Virus record (IMG/VR): IMGVR_UViG_3300020172_002194
Coordinates: 1-41,189 of that record
Reading direction: 5' to 3' (one strand)
Length of the DNA stretch: 41,189 nucleotides
Source: a virus
This document shows positions 23,406 through 41,189 of this stretch, piece after piece (positions within the stretch are counted from its first letter, which is position 1; each line of letters begins with the position of its first letter). The notes below the pieces were generated by a model. It was given only the letters and a program-made list of their open reading frames with translations, searched no databases and had not been told where the DNA came from. Position numbers and translations under genes: made by a program.

Positions 23406-26400
23406 TTAGATATTATCAAATGATGCTCCTGTTGGAGTAATTAAAAATTCGATATCGATAAATTCTAATGCTTTAGTTGGTTTAATATAAATTTTACCTA
23501 CTAATTGGTTTTTATCTAAGTCCTCAGTTGAAGACGAAACAGTTACACGGAAATCGTATAAACCTCTGTCTCTTCTGATAGCATCTAAGATAGGATTAAC
23601 CGCATCTAAGAAATCTTGTCTTACTTTTTCATCGTTTTGTTCGAATAACAATCTTACTGCTACTGCTGAAATCAACTTACGAGCTTGTAATAACAATCTT
23701 CTTACGTTAATTCTATCAAGAGCAGATTCTCTAACTTGTAAAGTTTTATTACCCCAAATTACAGTTCCTACGTCAGAGAATGTTGCAATTGGATTAATTC
23801 TACCAACATAAAGAGTGTCTCTATCTTCTTGAGTCAGTTTACGTCTTGCTTTGATTGCATTTACTAAACCTCTTGTATAACCCGCTGATGCGAACCAAGG
23901 GAATGCGATATTATCAGTTAACGCTAAGTTTCTTGTAACCTCAGCAGTTGCTGGAATATAAATCTGAGTGTTGTTAACAGTATCTCTTGTTAATACCCAA
24001 GGGTAGTAAGTTGCGGTGTAGTTTGAGTCGATTCCAGTGTTTTCTAAGTTATCAACTGCCTCAGTCGGATAAATAAAATCTTCTTGGTTAGTTGTTGTTG
24101 GTACAAACATATTAAAGTCAGGTGTTGTACAAATGTACAATGAATCTGCTCTGTCATTTTCTACCATATCAACCGCATCCTCGATTAGATTACTATTATT
24201 AACATAATCAATACCAGGTGTTACAAATACATTGATATTAACCGCTTCAGGGTTAACAAATGTTTTTTGTCCTAATAAGTAAGCGTAATAGTCAGTGTTT
24301 GCCCAATCATTTGAGTTATCACCAACTGTTATTCTTGAGAATAATCCGTCACCTGTCGCGTTTGTATATCTATCATCCGCACAAGCTCCTGCTAAATAAC
24401 CTGACTGACCTAATACGAATCTATCAGTATTTGTTCTTGATTCTCTGTAGATATCCCATCCGTCAAAACCACCTCCTACAAATAAAGTATATTTTCTTGA
24501 ATATAATCTGTAGTATGGACTATCAGTGTTTGTTGGTTCACTATTAAATGGTGCATCACCTACTGCAAATGCAGTTTGACCTGAAGTAGTATATCCATCA
24601 GGAATTGTTACAACTGTTGCTCCTGAGTCCATATGGAAACCTTTAGTAATGTACGGCCAATTTTGTAAAGCTGGTGTACACATAGTACCTAAATTTTGTT
24701 TACCAACATATTGGAAGAAATCTAAATCGTAACCAATTGATGTTGACAATCCTAAATAAGTACGTCTAACATTATCACCTGAAGATACTGCAGGGTCATC
24801 ATTACCTGATGAGTATCCAAACGGTGGGTTATAAATAACTTCACCAGGGTAGTCGTATTTAGTTTTATAGATTGGGAATGGAGAATTAACACCGTCATAC
24901 AATCTAAAATTATAACCTTCATAACCACAAGGTAATGAATCAATAGGTGCGTCTTCATTAATTTCAACCATAATGAATTTAGAATTTAATGAAAATTCAC
25001 CATCAGAAGAACCAATCTTTTTACCTACGAAATTATTTTGACCTGGGTCCATTGAACAATTTGTGAATTTTTCAATCACAACAGGTGCATCGTCAGTATC
25101 GTAAAAATCACGTACAATAACATCAAAGGTTGAGTTATTAAACGATATGTTTGCAATAGATATTTTTAATTGGTCGTTTGCACTATTACCGTCAGCAATA
25201 GATATAAATTTAAACAACTTATAAACTTGACTACCTCTTAATTCAGAAACTAACCAAGGTGATTCAGGTGTTTGATATTTTTCAACATAAAACGCAATAT
25301 TGTCTAATTCTTCACTTCTTGCAGAATCTAATTTAACTAAATTTTGTCTTAAACCTCTAATATAACCTTTCTTATAAGCCCAATTTAATAAACTTGAGAA
25401 TCTTTCTTCTAAGAATAAAGGAACTTCTGTTCTTGGTTTAGAGAAATTACCTAAACCAAATACTTTTGAAACGTATGTTGAGTCAGAACTTTGTAATGAA
25501 GTTTTGAATACATAAGACTTTCCATCATCATTAGTTACATTAACCGCAAATGGTGTAAAAGGATTTTTAGTTACCGCACTATAGCTACCGCTAAAATCTA
25601 AAGTAACCGCACTTAATTGACTAACTTCATAATCAGGTCCTTTTTGTGTTGAGTTATAATTTGAAATACCTCTTGAACGTAAAGTTGCAACTACTAAATT
25701 ATTGTAATCACTATAAGCTGAACCTGAATAATAATAAATCTTACCGTGTACTGTTCCTGAGAAACAATCAGGTTGAGTTGTTGTAGTTGTACTTACAGGA
25801 ATTGTTGTAGTTGTAGTATTACAAGGGTTTTGAGTTGTACTTGTTGTTGTTATAGGTGCAAATGTTGTTGTTGTAGTTGTTGTTTTTGGTAACATAGTTA
25901 AGTTTGAAACTACAGTCCAAAAAGAATAACCTGAATAACTATTACCTGAGTAGTTGTCAAATAAAGCGTAATACCAAGGGTCATTATATGATGATGTAAA
26001 ATCTGTGGTTGCTTCATTAACACTTGGTACTCCAAGTACGTTATTTGGGTTAGTAAACACAGGTGATAAAATATCATAATCGATATTATCAATACTACCC
26101 CAATAATTAATTGATGTTGCACTTAAACTTGGTTGTGCAAATACACCCAATAATTGGTCTTTAATATCTTGAGATAACGATGAAGTTCCACCGTCAAATT
26201 GAGTATATTCGTTTGTTAATATGTTTTGAATTTCAGCTGGGAAATTAGTTAAGAAAGTAATCGAACCATCTTGGTTACTACATCCCGTAAACTCAACGTC
26301 AAAACTAAGTGATACTCCAGTACAAGTTAAATCACAAGTATTGTCGTTATAGTTTGGTACACTAGAACAAACCTCGTCCATTTTTAGAGTTGTAGGGTCT

Positions 26401-34123: not shown

Positions 34124-34149
34124 AAAAAGGGGGTTCTAACCCCCTTTTT
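34124..34149. terminator. Bidirectional intrinsic terminator
   Basis: AAAAAGGGGG (34124-34133), loop TTCTAA, CCCCCTTTTT (34140-34149) plus one more T: a 10-bp stem with U-runs on both strands. It lies between the convergent gp13-block and gp43, ending both transcripts. The gp43 stop begins in its last bases. Confidence 0.9.
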
Positions 34150-36863
34150 TAATTAATATGTTCTTCCCATCCTTCATCCGCCAACTCATACATATAGTCA
34201 GGACTTAATCCTCTTTTTTCCCAATACTTTAATTCAGGTTCAGAAATATCTAAAACATCTTCTTGTAATCTATCTTGTCCTGAAGGGTCAAAAGGTTTAC
34301 CGTTAATCAATTCACATTGTTCTTTAGTAAATAGACCTCTCTTTTCAGGGTCCATTACTAATAAACCATCTCTAACTTCGTCTTTAAAAACAACAAGAAG
34401 AGGCTCAATCCTTTTATTGAAAGTTGTAATTGCTCTAGGTACATTATAGTCACCTGTTAAATCAGGGTTGTTTTCTAATTCTTTAGAATCTAAAATATAA
34501 CAATTTAAAACAGTATCATTACCTTTCTTTTGAACATCACCGTGAGATGCTTTAGTTCCATTATTAACATAAAATATTACATCACCTAAGTTAATATTCA
34601 TACCGTGTTTGATAGCTAATTCCATATGAGCCATCTTACTCATAGAACCACCTGATTTAGTTTTTTGAGTACTTCTAAAATTATAATCATCTAAAGAAAG
34701 TTTAACTTTAGCTCTTTGAGCGATTTGCATTAAAGGTATCTTTTTATCAAAGATTCTTTGTAGATACTCATAGTACCATTCAACAAATTCTTGACCCTTA
34801 CCTTCAAGTAAAAGTTTAACTCCTTTATCCAAAAACGCCTCAATATATAATGGTAATTTTTTAGATTTAATAGTGTTACCTGTTAATTTTACTTTACCCT
34901 TAGCATCCATAACCGCATAATTCTTACGTGCTAAATTAATACAGGATGGCCAAGTACCGTCAGTATCTAACGCCATTTCACCTCTCATAAATAAATCATT
35001 AAACTCAGCAACGTCGGCGTCGTCACCAGTATATTCTTTACCTTCTTTTACTTTCCAATTTAACCCCTTACCAATATATCTCCTGTCTTCCCAACCATCA
35101 GGTTTAGAGAAGTTAACACCGTCCGTATCCATTACAAGAGGTGTGTACCCACGTTTCATAAAAAACTTAATCATCATACGAAGATATTGTCTACCTGTAC
35201 AAGTAATTTGTTCGCCCATATACATATCTCCCCAAGCAAATACTTGTGGTGCGGATAACGCACCGAACATTGAGTTGATGAAGATTTTAATTGGTAATTG
35301 TTTACGGTCATATGATAATGATTTTTTAGGGTCTGTTTTTTCAAACTGTCCTGCCAAATTTTTATATAAGATACGTGTATCTCGGAAATATTTTAACATC
35401 GCTTTCATACCTCCTGTAACGTCACATTGAGGGAACACGTCGTGAACTAATTGAATTGACGGATATAGTGAACTAAAGTCAAGTTTCAAAACATTACGAG
35501 AATATCCCACTTTAAGTAGTCGAGATAAACCTCCAACAAACTCGGTTTTTTCTTGTTTTTGAGGTATTGCTAATTTGAATTTATATGACCAAGCCAACAT
35601 CAACATTTTCCATAATGTTGCGGTACCCATAGTTGAAACTCTTTCGTATGTGGTTGGAATCATTGCCGCCAACAAAAATGAACCTTGGTTGAATTCATCA
35701 TCCACTAATAAAGTTTCTTCTAAGTCATCGTCAAGATATCTTTCTACAATATCATCACCTGTTGTTTTAACATAAACTCCAGGGAACCTTTTATCTAAAT
35801 CATTAAACGATGGGTTATCGGTTCTTTTATATTTTCCATTAGTTAAATTTAACCAATATTCTTCTTTTTTAGCATACATAGACCCAATATCTTCGTGGGC
35901 AATATACACACGGTCGGCAGCTTCAGCTTCAATGTATTGAGTAATATATTTCAATCCTGCTGATTTGATAGATGAGTTAATTGCTTGGGCTCGTCTAACT
36001 GAGTGGATAATATCAATTACGTTGTACCCCCAAATAGACACTTGATTATACCTTTCAACTTCATTTGCAAGTTTTAACATATTCTCTCTTTGAGATATTG
36101 TTCTTGCAGGATTCAATGAACGACATACTTTTTTAATATCTAAATTAAGTGCCTGACATCTTTCAAAAATCCAATACCAGTCGAAGTTTGCGGAATTGTA
36201 CCCACCAATAATACTTGGTTTTAGTTCATCAATAATATTAAAGAATTGAACTAACCCTTGTCTTTCTTGTTCTTCTGTGGCACATTCAATAACCTTTTGA
36301 TATCCTTTATTGGTTTTAATTCCAATCATAAAAATACGACCGTCTTTTGGTTCAAGAGCAGTCGTCTCCAAGTCAAATACAAGTCGAGTAACATCGTTGT
36401 ATTCTTCATAACCTTTAAATAATCGTTTTTCTCTTTGGATTAAGTATTGTTCAACGGGAGGTAAAATCATAACCAAATCTTTGGCTCTATCACTCCAAGG
36501 GTCTAATCCCCCATCTCTGAAGAACTGAATCAATGACCTATAACCTTTTAAAGATTTAACAATATATTTTAAACCCTTTTCAAGTCGGTCATCACCTCTT
36601 GTCTCTAATTTTTCAATAACAATACCATACTTTGACATATACTCTTTTTGAGCACCTTTAGAATTTTGATAAAAATTCAAACCTCTAAGGTCTCCAACCC
36701 AAGCAAATGCAATAAAATTGTCTTTTTGAATTACTTTACCCTGACCAGGGATTTCTTTAATTTTATAAACTGAATCTGACACATAATCAAATTCGACCGC
36801 GACAATAAATTCTTCGGGGTCATTACCTTCTAAAAAGGATTTAATTTCTTCTTGACTAATCAT
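34149..36863 (-). CDS. 43: Family B DNA polymerase (gp43)
   Basis: At 904 aa it matches T4 gp43 (898 aa). The proofreading exonuclease has LVFDLETTAL with D164 and E166 (Exo I) and GGYNSANFDWYW (Exo II) near residue 220. Polymerase motif A KLDFSSLYPS lies near 458-467, motif B KIFINSMFGALS near 523-532 and motif C MDTDGVNF near 577-583. In motif B the usual Tyr is Phe, and motif C has DTDG instead of DTDS. These are tolerated variants in viral polymerases. It replicates the genome with gp41, gp32 and UvsX. A 16-codon leader ORF ends within its ATG (ATGA), under a sigma70-like promoter, so expression probably needs translational coupling. Confidence 0.97.
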   Translation of the reverse strand: MISQEEIKSFLEGNDPEEFIVAVEFDYVSDSVYKIKEIPGQGKVIQKDNFIAFAWVGDLRGLNFYQNSKGAQKEYMSKYGIVIEKLETRGDDRLEKGLKYIVKSLKGYRSLIQFFRDGGLDPWSDRAKDLVMILPPVEQYLIQREKRLFKGYEEYNDVTRLVFDLETTALEPKDGRIFMIGIKTNKGYQKVIECATEEQERQGLVQFFNIIDELKPSIIGGYNSANFDWYWIFERCQALNLDIKKVCRSLNPARTISQRENMLKLANEVERYNQVSIWGYNVIDIIHSVRRAQAINSSIKSAGLKYITQYIEAEAADRVYIAHEDIGSMYAKKEEYWLNLTNGKYKRTDNPSFNDLDKRFPGVYVKTTGDDIVERYLDDDLEETLLVDDEFNQGSFLLAAMIPTTYERVSTMGTATLWKMLMLAWSYKFKLAIPQKQEKTEFVGGLSRLLKVGYSRNVLKLDFSSLYPSIQLVHDVFPQCDVTGGMKAMLKYFRDTRILYKNLAGQFEKTDPKKSLSYDRKQLPIKIFINSMFGALSAPQVFAWGDMYMGEQITCTGRQYLRMMIKFFMKRGYTPLVMDTDGVNFSKPDGWEDRRYIGKGLNWKVKEGKEYTGDDADVAEFNDLFMRGEMALDTDGTWPSCINLARKNYAVMDAKGKVKLTGNTIKSKKLPLYIEAFLDKGVKLLLEGKGQEFVEWYYEYLQRIFDKKIPLMQIAQRAKVKLSLDDYNFRSTQKTKSGGSMSKMAHMELAIKHGMNINLGDVIFYVNNGTKASHGDVQKKGNDTVLNCYILDSKELENNPDLTGDYNVPRAITTFNKRIEPLLVVFKDEVRDGLLVMDPEKRGLFTKEQCELINGKPFDPSGQDRLQEDVLDISEPELKYWEKRGLSPDYMYELADEGWEEHIN

Positions 36864-36955: not shown

Positions 36956-37336
36956 TTAGCAACAAGCGTTATCTGAAATAAAACTGTCTTGGATATTAAT
37001 GAACAGTCTTTCTCTTATTGGTACGATTAAGTCACCTTGTTCGTTTTTTAACATAAATTGACCTTCATATCTACCAACTTTATTTGTATCTCTTTTGTTA
37101 AATCTAAAATAAATGTAATATTCTGTTGGCGTATTTGGGTCTACAAATGTCTTAGATACAAATCCCGCAGATTTACCTGTTATTTTGGGAATTCCAGTCT
37201 CAACATCAACCATTGTAAAAATAATTGCAGATGATTCTATTAAGTCCATAAAATTATGGTAATCACTTCTACCATCTTTTACAACCTGCATTTTTAATAC
37301 TGGGAGAGTTGCGTTTTTTTTAATAAAAAATTCCAT
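36956..37336 (-). CDS. BppU-like baseplate/tail accessory protein
   Basis: Start chosen at the ATG at 37336 (MEFFIKKNATLPVLKMQVVK); a TTG 24 nt upstream also keeps the frame open but lies in the promoter-like element. The 126-aa protein has the beta-sandwich pattern of BppU-type upper baseplate N-terminal domains: SAIIFTMVDVETGIPKITGK (about 36-55), EYYIYFRFNKRDTNKVGRYE (about 73-92) with the GRYEGQFML motif, and a terminal VPIRERLFINIQDSFI. It ends in two cysteines (DNACC). Such proteins sit on the baseplate and hold fibres. It is placed between the glycosyltransferases and the polymerase, away from the tail block, with its own TATTTAT element. Confidence 0.65.
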   Translation of the reverse strand: MEFFIKKNATLPVLKMQVVKDGRSDYHNFMDLIESSAIIFTMVDVETGIPKITGKSAGFVSKTFVDPNTPTEYYIYFRFNKRDTNKVGRYEGQFMLKNEQGDLIVPIRERLFINIQDSFISDNACC

Positions 37337-37384: not shown

Positions 37385-39088
37385 TCAAACAATTTGTGTC
37401 CAATCAAATTCGTTAAACCAATTATACGAATGATATATTTTTAGATTATCTAAATTATAAAACTCAAAAGAACCTGAATACTCACTATTAAAATCAATTT
37501 GTCTTTTAATATTATTTTCTTCAATTCTAAATGAATGACTTAGGTTTTCAATATTAAGCTTGGTAAAATCCCAAGTGTATTTTAAAATATACAATTCTCC
37601 TTCTTTGAAAATCCTAAAATTTAAAACCGCATCTTTTTCTTTAAATGTTACAGGAATTAATGATTCTTTAACTAAAACACCTTTTGTCTGATTAGATAAC
37701 GATTCTATATAACTTTTAATCGAAACATCATTAGAACCTTCTCCAACAAAATGACATATAAAATTTTGTTTTTTATGAGAAATTCTAAATTTATTTAAAA
37801 TTTCACTATTAACTATTTTATAATCTTTATCATTTGATTTAGAAAGAATTATATGTATTGGACCTTGTTCAAACGGCCAATAATCATATGTAAACTGATG
37901 ATTGTTAATTTCTTGGTGAGAAAATTCAAACCCTCTATTTGTATTACTCTTAGTTTCCCACACATTATTTAAAAAATCTATAGACCATTTATCATTTTTT
38001 AATATAAAAACACCTGTGTTAATAATCCTTAGGTTGTGTAATTCTAAATAATCTAAATTTGGGTTTAAAGTTTTTGTGTTTCTATAGTTATCCTCGGAAG
38101 CAATAATTAATTTAATATCGGGATTAGTGTTACAAATAAAATCAAATCTAATTTCAGGGTTAGTTATGTAAGCATCATTATCTACCCAAACAACGTAATC
38201 GTATAAATTAGACTCTAAAACTTCTTTTAAAATTATTATTTTATCCCAACCAGGATGTCTATTACTTAATCTACCTTTATGATATTTGAAATAGTAATTG
38301 TGTTTTTTAGAATAATCTTCTTTATTAGGAATAGTAATGTTAGCAACATTAGTTATATTTTCTGTAAAATGAGAAACTAAACAAATTTTCAACTTCTTAA
38401 GTTCAATTAATTTAGTGGTTTCTGTTTCATCAATTCCTAACTTATCATTAATCTTTTTTACCGAAGTAATAAAGTTTTCTAAATGTGATTCTGATTGTCT
38501 ACTACCCATATAGTGAATAATAAAAGTTTTATCATTCGATGAATTTGGATGTGAGTTAAATTCTGTAGATGGAAATATTTTAAATTTTTTAGTATTCTCT
38601 CTAGTTAAGATTTCACACATTTTACCTTGTTCGTGAGGAAAACCATCATAAGAGTGTTTTTCTAATTTATCTAAACTGTAGTTAGGAACACTATTCCACA
38701 CTTTATTTAATAAACTTGAAGACCATTCGGTATTTTTAAAAATCATCACACCTGTGTTTACCATAAGATGAGTTACTCCTTCGGCATAACAAACATCGCT
38801 ACAGAATAACGCGTCAAAATCAGTATTGTCTGAAATTAATTTATTTAATGAGATTTCAAAATTATTAAATACGGTGTCACTATCCATCCATATTACATAA
38901 TCATATTCAGGTAATGTTTGAATTAAACATTGGATTTTATCCCACTGAGCGTGTCTCTCAGACGCTCTACCAAAATAAAATCTGTAATCAATACCATATT
39001 TTTCACAATATTTTTTTTTATTTAACGTTGATAGTCTTGACTCCGTTTCAATTTCTTCTGTGAATAAACTAACTACACAAATTTTCAT
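37385..39088 (-). CDS. Tandem-domain glycosyltransferase (two GT34-like domains plus beta C-terminus)
   Basis: A 567-aa protein containing the same domain twice. Copy 1 (about 1-215) starts MKICVVSLFTEE and has HAQWDKIQCLIQTLPEYDYV and WMDSDTVF with DSD at 69-71. Copy 2 (about 232-470) starts LKICLVSHFTEN and has HPGWDKIIILKEVL and WVDNDAYI with DND at 302-304. Both have the later NTGV(M/F)I(F/L)K block and an EQG segment near a His, all as in GT34 galactosyl/xylosyl-type (GMA12/MNN10) retaining transferases. The last 100 residues look like a separate beta domain. Each half keeps its metal-binding DxD, so two sugars could be added. It ends the transferase group, 3 bp after the GT60-type gene. 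Confidence 0.85.
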   Translation of the reverse strand: MKICVVSLFTEEIETESRLSTLNKKKYCEKYGIDYRFYFGRASERHAQWDKIQCLIQTLPEYDYVIWMDSDTVFNNFEISLNKLISDNTDFDALFCSDVCYAEGVTHLMVNTGVMIFKNTEWSSSLLNKVWNSVPNYSLDKLEKHSYDGFPHEQGKMCEILTRENTKKFKIFPSTEFNSHPNSSNDKTFIIHYMGSRQSESHLENFITSVKKINDKLGIDETETTKLIELKKLKICLVSHFTENITNVANITIPNKEDYSKKHNYYFKYHKGRLSNRHPGWDKIIILKEVLESNLYDYVVWVDNDAYITNPEIRFDFICNTNPDIKLIIASEDNYRNTKTLNPNLDYLELHNLRIINTGVFILKNDKWSIDFLNNVWETKSNTNRGFEFSHQEINNHQFTYDYWPFEQGPIHIILSKSNDKDYKIVNSEILNKFRISHKKQNFICHFVGEGSNDVSIKSYIESLSNQTKGVLVKESLIPVTFKEKDAVLNFRIFKEGELYILKYTWDFTKLNIENLSHSFRIEENNIKRQIDFNSEYSGSFEFYNLDNLKIYHSYNWFNEFDWTQIV

Positions 39089-39091
39089 ATA

Positions 39092-40342
39092 TTAAAGTTT
39101 TCCTTCTATTTTATCACACCATCCTTTAGATTCTGAATGGGGCCAAACAATCCAATATGAAGGTTTTTCTGCGGTTGAGAATTCTCTCCATATTTTACAA
39201 TATCCGTCCTTGTCGTTCTTTAAACGATTAATTTCACTTTTATCGGCATCTTTTCTATATAATGTTTCACCACCTTCTCTATGAAACGCAACCACCCAAA
39301 AATCATAATCAGTTTCAGGTACTTGTCCCATATTAATGTCGATACAATGTTTAAATATTTGAGAAAAACTATTAATCCAATCTTCCTCAGTTTTAAAATT
39401 ATAAGTATTTGGAGGATATTTTTTATCTAAAGTTTCTTGTTGTACCGCTCTTTTATTAAATAAAATTCCAGAATATTTCTCATAATCCCTAAGAGTTCTT
39501 TCATCCCCAAAACCAAAAATACCAAATTCTTCAGGATTATAAGTTTCACCATCCATACTAAATAACCTTCTATTTTTGGAGTGTGAAAATTTATTTTTTT
39601 CACCCCAAGTTTTATCATCATCCCATTGTTTAGTTCTCCCTTTACGAGTATATTCGTGCCAACAAATAATTCTATGAGGATGAAATAAATCATAACCGTG
39701 GGTATATGCTCTTGCAGCAATTGATATTTCTTCACCGTGAAAGTAAAACTCTGGGTCGTGTTGTACTTCTTTTGTAAACAAACCTAATGTAAATGCAAAA
39801 TGAGCGGAATAAAATCTACTTGGTACTGGCTCAGTTAAATCTTTCCAATTAGGTATAGTTTCAGGTAAAAAGAAAATAGCACCTTCGGGAATAAACCTAT
39901 CAAAAGACATTCTCCAAGGAACCATAACTCTACCATTTGGGTCATTTTCAGGGTCAAATGAAGAAACATAACCTGTTAGTAATGGTTTTTTATAACCTTT
40001 TTCTTGTAATTGTTTAACCATATTAATAGATATCTCATCCCAATCCTGTTCAAATCTCATATGGGAGTCAATCTGTAAAGTGTATTCCTCCCCTTCATAT
40101 AATTGTTGAGTTAAATTTCTAGCCCAACAAACGCCTTTAGATTCTTCATAAGGGATGTTTAAAATTCTAAATCTATCATCATTTTCAAATTTAGATAAAT
40201 CATCAAATTTATCATCAATGTGGAATTGTCTAGCAATTGAGAATACTAAATTTTCAGGATTCTTTGCTTTGTCTAAAGCATCTTTAACTGTTAATATTAA
40301 TTGTGGGTCTCTATAAGACGCGATTTGAATAAAAATTTTCAT
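39092..40342 (-). CDS. GT60-type GlcNAc transferase
   Basis: A 416-aa protein with the signature of the GlcNAc (PF11397, GT60) family: FIQIASYRDPQLILTVKDAL (5-24), ARQFHID, then GVCWARNLTQQLYEGEEYTL and QIDSHMRFEQDWD, with IDSH (91-94) as the DxD-like metal motif. Later blocks include PGR-like NDPNGRVMVPWRM, FYSAHFAFTLG and HGEEISIAARAYTHGYDLFHP. The family includes Skp1 hydroxyproline GlcNAc-transferase Gnt1. The last ~90 residues (YDFWVVAFHREGGETLYRKD) are extra and unassigned. It follows the dioxygenase by 78 bp that contain the dioxygenase terminator, and its start has no Shine-Dalgarno. A TATATTTTAG box lies about 35 nt upstream. Confidence 0.85.
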   Translation of the reverse strand: MKIFIQIASYRDPQLILTVKDALDKAKNPENLVFSIARQFHIDDKFDDLSKFENDDRFRILNIPYEESKGVCWARNLTQQLYEGEEYTLQIDSHMRFEQDWDEISINMVKQLQEKGYKKPLLTGYVSSFDPENDPNGRVMVPWRMSFDRFIPEGAIFFLPETIPNWKDLTEPVPSRFYSAHFAFTLGLFTKEVQHDPEFYFHGEEISIAARAYTHGYDLFHPHRIICWHEYTRKGRTKQWDDDKTWGEKNKFSHSKNRRLFSMDGETYNPEEFGIFGFGDERTLRDYEKYSGILFNKRAVQQETLDKKYPPNTYNFKTEEDWINSFSQIFKHCIDINMGQVPETDYDFWVVAFHREGGETLYRKDADKSEINRLKNDKDGYCKIWREFSTAEKPSYWIVWPHSESKGWCDKIEGKL

Positions 40343-40390
40343 ACTACTATTTTAGATACTAAAATATAAGAAACAAAAAAACAATATAAA

Positions 40391-40421
40391 CAAAAAATCC
40401 CCCAAACAATGTTGGAGGATT
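40391..40421 (-). terminator. Intrinsic terminator after dioxygenase gene
   Basis: A 10-bp stem with one C/A mismatch (AATCCTCCAA, 40421-40412, with TTGGGGGATT, 40405-40396) is followed on the sense strand by TTTTTT (40397-40392). It overlaps the last base pairs of the dioxygenase stop codon. Confidence 0.8.
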
Positions 40422-41055
40422 ATTTTAATTTATTTTGAAAATAATTTTCAATCCTACGGCTTAATCTAATTCTTGGGTCATTTTCATTTCTACCTAAAAC
40501 ATTATATGGTACCAAAAACCCAAAACTTAAAAAAACTCTTCTTGAGTTAAACTCCTCCGTCCAATGTTTATATAGTGAAGCTTCAAAACAATATAAGTCT
40601 TTTTGTTCTATCACAGGTGAAGAACCGTCTATAAAAATTTTATAATCTTCTGATAACACACTTATGTTACACTTATAATTTATGTAACCATAAAGTGACG
40701 CATCATAGTGGGGTTGTATTCTACCACCTTTTTTCATATCGACCGCTTGAATAAAGATATTATTGAGAGGTAGGTTATTCTCTTCAGATATCCTTTTAAA
40801 AATAGTTTTGATAATTTGGGGTATCTCTTGATTTGAAACTTTGGAAACTGATTGAAAATTTGTAATATAGTTTGTAAGTTCCGTGTTTGAGATATCTATA
40901 ATACAGGATTTCCCCTTTAGTGTTTTTGAAATTTCACTTAAGTGGTAATTCGGGTCTCCCTCTTCAGGATTTAATGAATCAACCCAATCTACAATTAGTT
41001 TAACCTCATCATCACTGATGAAATTTTTTACTATTTTATAATTTTTAAATTCCAT
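40420..41055 (-). CDS. 2-oxoglutarate/Fe(II) dioxygenase, prolyl-4-hydroxylase type
   Basis: A 211-aa protein with the double-stranded beta-helix motifs: GGRIQPHYDAS with iron ligands H116 and D118, an FIDGSSPV/DLYCFEA core, then YKHWTEEFNSRRVFLSFGF with distal H164 and the 2-oxoglutarate-binding Arg at R172 or R173. This is the layout of P4H-type oxygenases that hydroxylate Pro or Asp/Asn side chains in proteins. The remaining N-terminal 100 residues are an alpha/beta lead-in. The gene overlaps the upstream cut gene by 25 bp. Together with the next two transferases it suggests hydroxylation followed by glycosylation. A nucleic-acid substrate cannot be ruled out. Confidence 0.88.
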   Translation of the reverse strand: MEFKNYKIVKNFISDDEVKLIVDWVDSLNPEEGDPNYHLSEISKTLKGKSCIIDISNTELTNYITNFQSVSKVSNQEIPQIIKTIFKRISEENNLPLNNIFIQAVDMKKGGRIQPHYDASLYGYINYKCNISVLSEDYKIFIDGSSPVIEQKDLYCFEASLYKHWTEEFNSRRVFLSFGFLVPYNVLGRNENDPRIRLSRRIENYFQNKLK

Positions 41056-41189
41056 TTATTAAGAAATTCTTTTGGACCAATTTCTAGTTCCATTATAGAT
41101 AAGTTTTTCTTGGCGTAAATAGAGTTCATTTTTTCCTCAGACCCAGCCATTGTACAAAACCAATGAGTTGCAGGTTCTTCTCCTGTTGG
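41031..41189 (-). CDS. Unknown protein, 3' part, cut by window edge
   Basis: The last 52 codons of a gene that enters from the right. They read PTGEEPATHWFCTMAGSEEK, then MNSIYAKKNLSIMELEIGPK and EFLNKWNLKIIK. No family is recognised. The end is polar, with an ATHWFC segment that could be a strand with a Cys. The stop (41031-41033) lies inside the dioxygenase gene, so the two overlap by 25 bp and are translationally coupled. The cut gene is probably part of the same modification unit. No more can be said from this fragment. Confidence 0.7.
   Translation of the reverse strand, partial: PTGEEPATHWFCTMAGSEEKMNSIYAKKNLSIMELEIGPKEFLNKWNLKIIK

Follow-up and report, generated by a model that had tools for sequence, protein, structure and literature searches.

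The 41,189-nucleotide stretch of viral DNA analysed here (the window; positions 1 to 41,189 of IMG/VR record IMGVR_UViG_3300020172_002194) carries close to its end a gene for a GT60-type glycosyltransferase, which is followed on the minus strand by a gene for a tandem GT34-like glycosyltransferase. We propose, with a probability of about 0.7, that the products of these two genes start and extend the glycans in a mucin-type O-glycosylation system encoded by the phage. The family, fold, motifs and gene order of the GT60 cassette and its linkage to mucin-like genes, i.e., genes for long proteins built of Pro-Thr repeats, were computed. The two genes are:

39092-40342, minus strand: GT60 (PF11397) polypeptide N-acetylhexosamine (HexNAc)-transferase-like priming enzyme, 416 aa, with DxH motif (from profile, motifs and model)
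37385-39088, minus strand: tandem GT34-like glycosyltransferase, 567 aa, two GT-A domains with DSD and DND (from profile and motifs)

An earlier reading of the same DNA, made from the sequence only, had placed the first protein in GT60, and the profile search bore this out. PF11397 is matched with 230.6 bits (cut-off 21; E=5.1e-68), and at the level of sequence the family assignment is beyond doubt. The motifs CWAR (residue 72) and DSH (the DxH motif, residue 92) are invariant or nearly so in the relatives. The AlphaFold model, a GT-A fold, reaches a mean pLDDT of 93.7, and its 43 best PDB matches are all polypeptide N-acetylgalactosamine (GalNAc)-transferases (E=1e-10 to 3e-8). The DxH metal motif is common to the GT27 polypeptide GalNAc-transferases. 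In CAZy, GT60 comprises polypeptide alpha-N-acetylglucosamine (GlcNAc)-transferases with which Dictyostelium and Trypanosoma cruzi start their mucin-type O-glycans on Thr (PMC8724618, PMC3769586). In one record (L319) the GT60 domain lies within an 820-aa open frame and is possibly fused to another enzyme (G144:C1:15212-15970).

For the analysis of gene neighbourhoods, relatives were fetched from viral contigs for GT60 (80), for the dioxygenase encoded next to it in the window (79) and, as a marker sample, for the DNA polymerase (80), and longer records were searched further. Many of these records are fragments and the lineages are related. All 80 GT60 relatives have a gene upstream on the same strand, with a median gap of 65 bp, and in 25 of 42 non-redundant cases the directly upstream gene encodes a (PT)n protein, compared to 14% of other genes (p=4e-11). 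The longest of these proteins has 1776 aa and contains 37% Thr and 19% Pro; the repeats are of the kind NTPTPTQTPTNTPTPT. When GT60 was collapsed at 85% identity and only lineages with 3 kb or more of DNA upstream were kept, 19 of them were obtained; a Pro-Thr protein is encoded within 6 kb upstream of GT60 in 14 of them and downstream in four. Synonymous codons are mixed in the Pro-Thr blocks, with all four Thr codons in use, and therefore it is the protein sequence that is conserved and not a simple DNA repetition.

The linkage was also seen from the opposite direction. In viral contigs chosen solely by a (TPTx)3 codon pattern, and thus independently of the choice of GT60, a GT60 gene was present in 17 of 50 cases, whereas none was found in 37 random contigs (p=2e-5). 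Pro-Thr repeats in turn occur in nearly every GT60 record (29/30 and 21/21 in two samples), and GT60 with a Pro-Thr-rich neighbour was also detected at distant loci in several bacterial genomes and in the cultured phages XacN1 and RAS14. These results bear on the possibility that the linkage is a by-product of a shared fibre-region neighbourhood within one clade, and that GT60 acts on another fibre protein such as a collagen-like one or the Thr-rich sheath. The records are indeed related, and in the close relatives G002 and G003 the directly adjacent gene is collagen-like and rich in Gly, Ser and Thr rather than in Pro-Thr. However, neither the sampling that started from Pro-Thr repeats nor the recurrence in bacterial loci and in XacN1/RAS14 fits this explanation well, and we regard it as unlikely, though worth keeping in mind.

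When the window itself was searched for a Pro-Thr repeat none was found. The candidate acceptors lie outside of it, and the obvious ones are the giant Pro-Thr proteins. A longer contig of the same phage (IMGVR_UViG_3300020161_002440, 67 kb) shares 99.9-100% identity with the window along the full window length and extends 26 kb further. After long, structural-looking genes it encodes three successive mucin-like Pro-Thr proteins of 963, 594 and 257 aa (PTITETPTPTPTITE...), and at its end one collagen-like protein rich in Thr, Ser and Gly; an example of the Pro-Thr peptide sequence of this phage is PTPTITETPTPTPTITE. G003, a close relative, has genes for a Pro-Thr-rich protein (1188 aa), a fibre-region protein (682 aa) and a collagen-like protein ahead of GT60, all four in one run with the same direction. 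The sequence-only reading had looked for substrates in Pro/Thr-rich linkers of proteins encoded within the window, which came close to the mark but missed the giant proteins beyond its borders.

Several points weigh against a mucin-type system. Since both assemblies stop a short way upstream of a gene for an 82-aa protein, the candidate acceptors of the window's phage are found in the opposite arm of the contig and not directly beside GT60; a gap at this place would be expected if the stretch is repetitive. About a quarter of the non-redundant lineages have no Pro-Thr-rich gene in the 6 kb read upstream of GT60, and 33 of the 50 Pro-Thr repeat contigs, many of them fragments, are without GT60. 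The random controls amount to only about 1.8 Mb in total, compared to about 4.2 Mb of Pro-Thr repeat contigs, and since neighbouring records are related the p-values given above overstate their independence. Finally, the TM-scores of the GT60 model to the GalNAc-transferases are moderate (about 0.5).

The second enzyme matches PF05637 (E=3.9e-24), as the tandem GT34 assignment had predicted, and DxD sites are intact in both halves (DSD at 69, DND at 303). An alignment of the two halves over 232 columns gives 33% identity (E=9e-39), so that the protein is, judged by its sequence, a true tandem duplication. In a phmmer search it matched xyloglucan xylosyltransferases (E=9e-6), and it is a putative glycan-extending enzyme. 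In the relatives GT60 is followed by one to six genes, in which members of the GT25, GT10, GT34, GT2, Gly_transf_sug and methyltransferase families are shuffled. Such an order, in which the primer is constant and the extenders after it vary, is that of a glycan-diversifying cassette, and the tandem GT34 fills the extender slot in the window. Most relatives have a gene for an HtrL/YibB-family protein (about 558 aa, PF09612) as the last gene of the GT60 cassette (L070:10693-12369 and similar), which is absent from the window's phage.

From these data we infer the donor sugar, the Thr acceptor, the modified protein and the biological role of the cassette as follows. GT60 would transfer HexNAc, most likely GlcNAc, from a UDP-sugar onto Thr of Pro-Thr-repeat proteins. 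The acceptors would be the mucin-like proteins of the virion fibre/baseplate region, modified while they are made in the host cytosol, and lineage-specific extenders, here the tandem GT34, would then lengthen or cap the glycan. The outcome would be a glycan bristle on the fibres, which makes them stiffer, protects them and lends them a variable surface.

The families in the extender slot also allow a different interpretation, namely that the cassette makes a polysaccharide or alters a sugar of the host surface (receptor masking or superinfection exclusion) and does not act on a phage protein. Its members include lipopolysaccharide-type GT25, GT10 fucosyltransferases, methyltransferases and a carbamoyltransferase, and such families are common in surface glycan loci. 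However, GT60 and its fold neighbours act on polypeptides, the cassette comes directly after fibre-region genes and ends at a 126-aa gene before the DNA polymerase, not in a host-takeover region, and GT60 is strongly linked to mucin-like open reading frames (ORFs). A polysaccharide or host-surface target is rather improbable.

The remaining features of interest in the window are:

41031-41189, minus strand: C-terminal part of a conserved 82-aa protein that the window edge truncates; in most relatives its gene lies before that of the dioxygenase
40420-41055, minus strand: 2-oxoglutarate (2OG)/Fe(II) dioxygenase, prolyl-hydroxylase/AlkB-like fold, 211 aa (from motifs, model and separability counts)
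36956-37336, minus strand: 126-aa protein, end of the cassette before the DNA polymerase (conserved order in relatives)
34149-36863: DNA polymerase, next in order after the 126-aa gene
25764-25889, minus strand: Thr-rich stretch PKTTTTTTTFAPITTTSTTQNPCNTTTTTIPVSTTTTTQPDC within the protein named tail sheath in the sequence-only reading

Within the window, the Thr-rich stretch at 25764-25889 might be a minor target of O-glycosylation. The 126-aa gene is real, is kept just upstream of the DNA polymerase in the relatives, and its product is related to domains of larger fibre-region proteins. It had been suggested as a substrate, being a baseplate-type protein next to the transferases, but it has no Pro-Thr repeat; it was rejected in this role and is retained solely as a fibre-region gene.

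The ORFs for the dioxygenase, GT60 and GT34 were confirmed as consecutive genes on the minus strand, with the positions and motifs first described for them (H116/D118/H164, CWAR, DSH and two DxD sites); the complete order at the window end is dioxygenase, GT60, tandem GT34, 126-aa gene, DNA polymerase. This arrangement had led to the suggestion that the dioxygenase hydroxylates Pro, that GT60 primes the hydroxyproline with GlcNAc as on Skp1 of Dictyostelium, and that GT34 extends the glycan, on a virion or a host protein. Pro-Thr repeats would supply many prolines for such a pathway, and the initiator on Skp1 hydroxyproline is one cytosolic member of GT60 (PMC8724618). GT60 is however mainly a family of mucin-type Thr initiators, and the extenders of the Skp1 glycan belong to GT2/GT74 (PMC8724618) and not to GT34.

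For the dioxygenase, a relationship to prolyl 4-hydroxylases (P4H) is only partly borne out. The motifs H116-x-D118, H164 and RR172-173 are present, and across 37 homologues, with identities down to 49%, neither the metal triad nor the two arginines vary. The structure predicted by AlphaFold (mean pLDDT 89.5) gives as top fold matches P. putida P4H (E=5.5e-8), a Dictyostelium prolyl hydroxylase (PHD; 1.1e-7) and PHD2, but AlkB enzymes are interspersed with nearly equal scores, although the P4H/PHD enzymes rank first. No Pfam family, including any 2OG family, was above threshold, none was found in the PHROG scan either, and the profile match to C. reinhardtii P4H is weak (E=0.066). The fold is prolyl-hydroxylase/AlkB-like, and a P4H-like reaction is plausible. 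No relatives that would point to the substrate were found in annotated phage genomes. Short ORFs starting with 'M' in some homologues were judged by full-length tblastn matches to be artefacts of non-ATG starts.

Of the findings that the sequence-only reading had named as refuting it, a missing linkage in relatives holds for the pair of dioxygenase and GT60, whereas the GT60 profile match did not fail. The dioxygenase is present in 5 of 40 GT60 records, GT60 in 21 of 43 dioxygenase records, and many records carry one of the two and not both. In the polymerase-marker sample, which favours seeing GT60 because the polymerase lies near it, 30 of 39 records hold GT60 and 5 of 39 the dioxygenase; the former is near-core, the latter accessory, and the two are not significantly associated (Fisher p=0.32). 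Phage records of 100-226 kb carry the dioxygenase without GT60 and without Pro-Thr repeats. Only in the window's own phage does the dioxygenase abut GT60; in other records with both genes they are apart, as in G068 (by about 4 kb) or in G030 and G035 (by about 10 kb), examples in which they share a strand. What is constant is the 82-aa ORF directly upstream of the dioxygenase, found there in about 60 loci including those of unrelated phages (e.g. L085:289-537). The 82-aa protein has the invariant motif S-x-T-G-x-x-P-A-T-H-x-x-C (with its Thr, His and Cys positions) and no match in Pfam, PHROG or annotated phages; possibly it is the substrate or the partner of the dioxygenase.

Because it is separable from GT60 and has its own constant companion, the dioxygenase is probably a separate fibre-region gene that the glycosylation cassette does not require. 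From the order hydroxylate-prime-extend, what stands is priming by GT60 followed by extending transferases, probably on a virion protein, while hydroxylation as a step of the same pathway is not supported; the full three-step scheme is improbable. In the mucin-type system favoured here the P4H-like dioxygenase would modify something else in the fibre region and would abut GT60 by chance in this lineage. Large fibre-region proteins upstream of the dioxygenase are built of N-x-I-G-x-x-F-x-x-N repeats with many Asn/Asp (L104:2157-4544 and similar), and Asn/Asp hydroxylation of these repeats would be an alternative target. Also near the dioxygenase, a fibre-region protein of 358 aa contains an LCIB-type beta-carbonic anhydrase domain (PF18599, E=9e-28; L086:102-1178, G006:58808-59884); its cluster is present in 20 dioxygenase loci, and a virion-associated carbonic anhydrase would be unusual. 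That the dioxygenase and the glycosyltransferases together hypermodify phage DNA by hydroxylating a base and adding sugars, as virus-encoded glycosyltransferases do elsewhere (Pyle et al. 2024, as cited in PMC12619734) and as AlkB-family structures among the fold matches might suggest, is very improbable, as the GT60 fold matches are polypeptide GalNAc-transferases, most GT60 phages have no dioxygenase, and the Pfam scan gave no TET/JBP-type match for the latter.

Beyond this phage, it is about an even bet that tailed phages of several lineages encode a complete mucin-type O-glycosylation system, with a GT60 enzyme resembling polypeptide GalNAc-transferases beside giant Pro-Thr mucins, rapidly exchanged extenders and a custom glycan coat on the fibres, and that the mucin-initiating family of eukaryotes may have a common origin with these prokaryotic or viral enzymes or have been acquired from them. 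A literature search with incomplete coverage yielded no paper joining phage and GT60, or phage-encoded and mucin-type O-glycosylation, and nothing direct on phage mucins; the novelty is therefore provisional. If true, this would be a phage counterpart of the mucin-type O-glycosylation described for animals and protists, in which the genes for enzyme and mucin are neighbours, and it would offer research and glycoengineering mucin-initiating enzymes from a simple cytosolic system. It would also give a reason for the many glycosyltransferases of large aquatic phages, bear on the origin of the eukaryotic GT60/GT27 initiators, and lead to the testable idea that exchangeable fibre glycan coats change the surface properties of phages.

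Among known systems, the Skp1 pathway (PhyA, Gnt1, PgtA) has in common with the window the GT60-type initiator and a P4H-like dioxygenase nearby. It differs in the extenders and in the dioxygenase, which in phages is unlinked to GT60, and no Skp1-like substrate was identified in the phage. The animal polypeptide GalNAc-transferases (GT27), which are the best structural matches and share DxH, have an identity of just 9-16% to the phage GT60; the latter gave no match to a lectin-domain family, and its C-terminal region (about 90 residues) is different. In the protist systems of Dictyostelium (Gnt2) and Trypanosoma cruzi (TcOGNT-2), enzymes of the same PF11397/GT60 family carry out the initiating step, likewise on Thr-rich mucin-like acceptors, and further transferases including galactosyltransferases extend the glycan (PMC8724618, PMC3769586). 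These enzymes work in the Golgi, whereas the phage GT60 would act in the bacterial cytosol; in the phage system, unlike in protists, the acceptor is encoded next to the enzyme and the extender slot varies between phages.

Among phages, ORF334 of Xanthomonas phage XacN1 (47% identical to the window GT60) and the homologue of Stenotrophomonas phage RAS14/CM1 resemble the window GT60 with 45-47% identity, a position in the fibre region and a Pro-Thr-rich protein nearby. In XacN1, ORF325 (3313 aa), directly after the baseplate wedge genes, carries Pro-Thr-rich segments. Unlike in the window, the next gene in both phages encodes a carbamoyltransferase and not a GT34, and the Pro-Thr repeats are much shorter. 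By proteomics at least two glycoproteins were found in XacN1 virions and were credited by the authors to its two glycosyltransferases (PMC5852040), without tying any glycosylated protein to ORF334. Mycobacteriophages, in the virion glycosylation work of Freeman et al. (2023) as far as it is cited in PMC12619734, likewise use phage-encoded transferases on their own structural proteins; there the glycans are placed at the C-termini of capsid and tail-tube subunits, whereas the system proposed here would combine mucin-like repeat proteins with a GT60 initiator.

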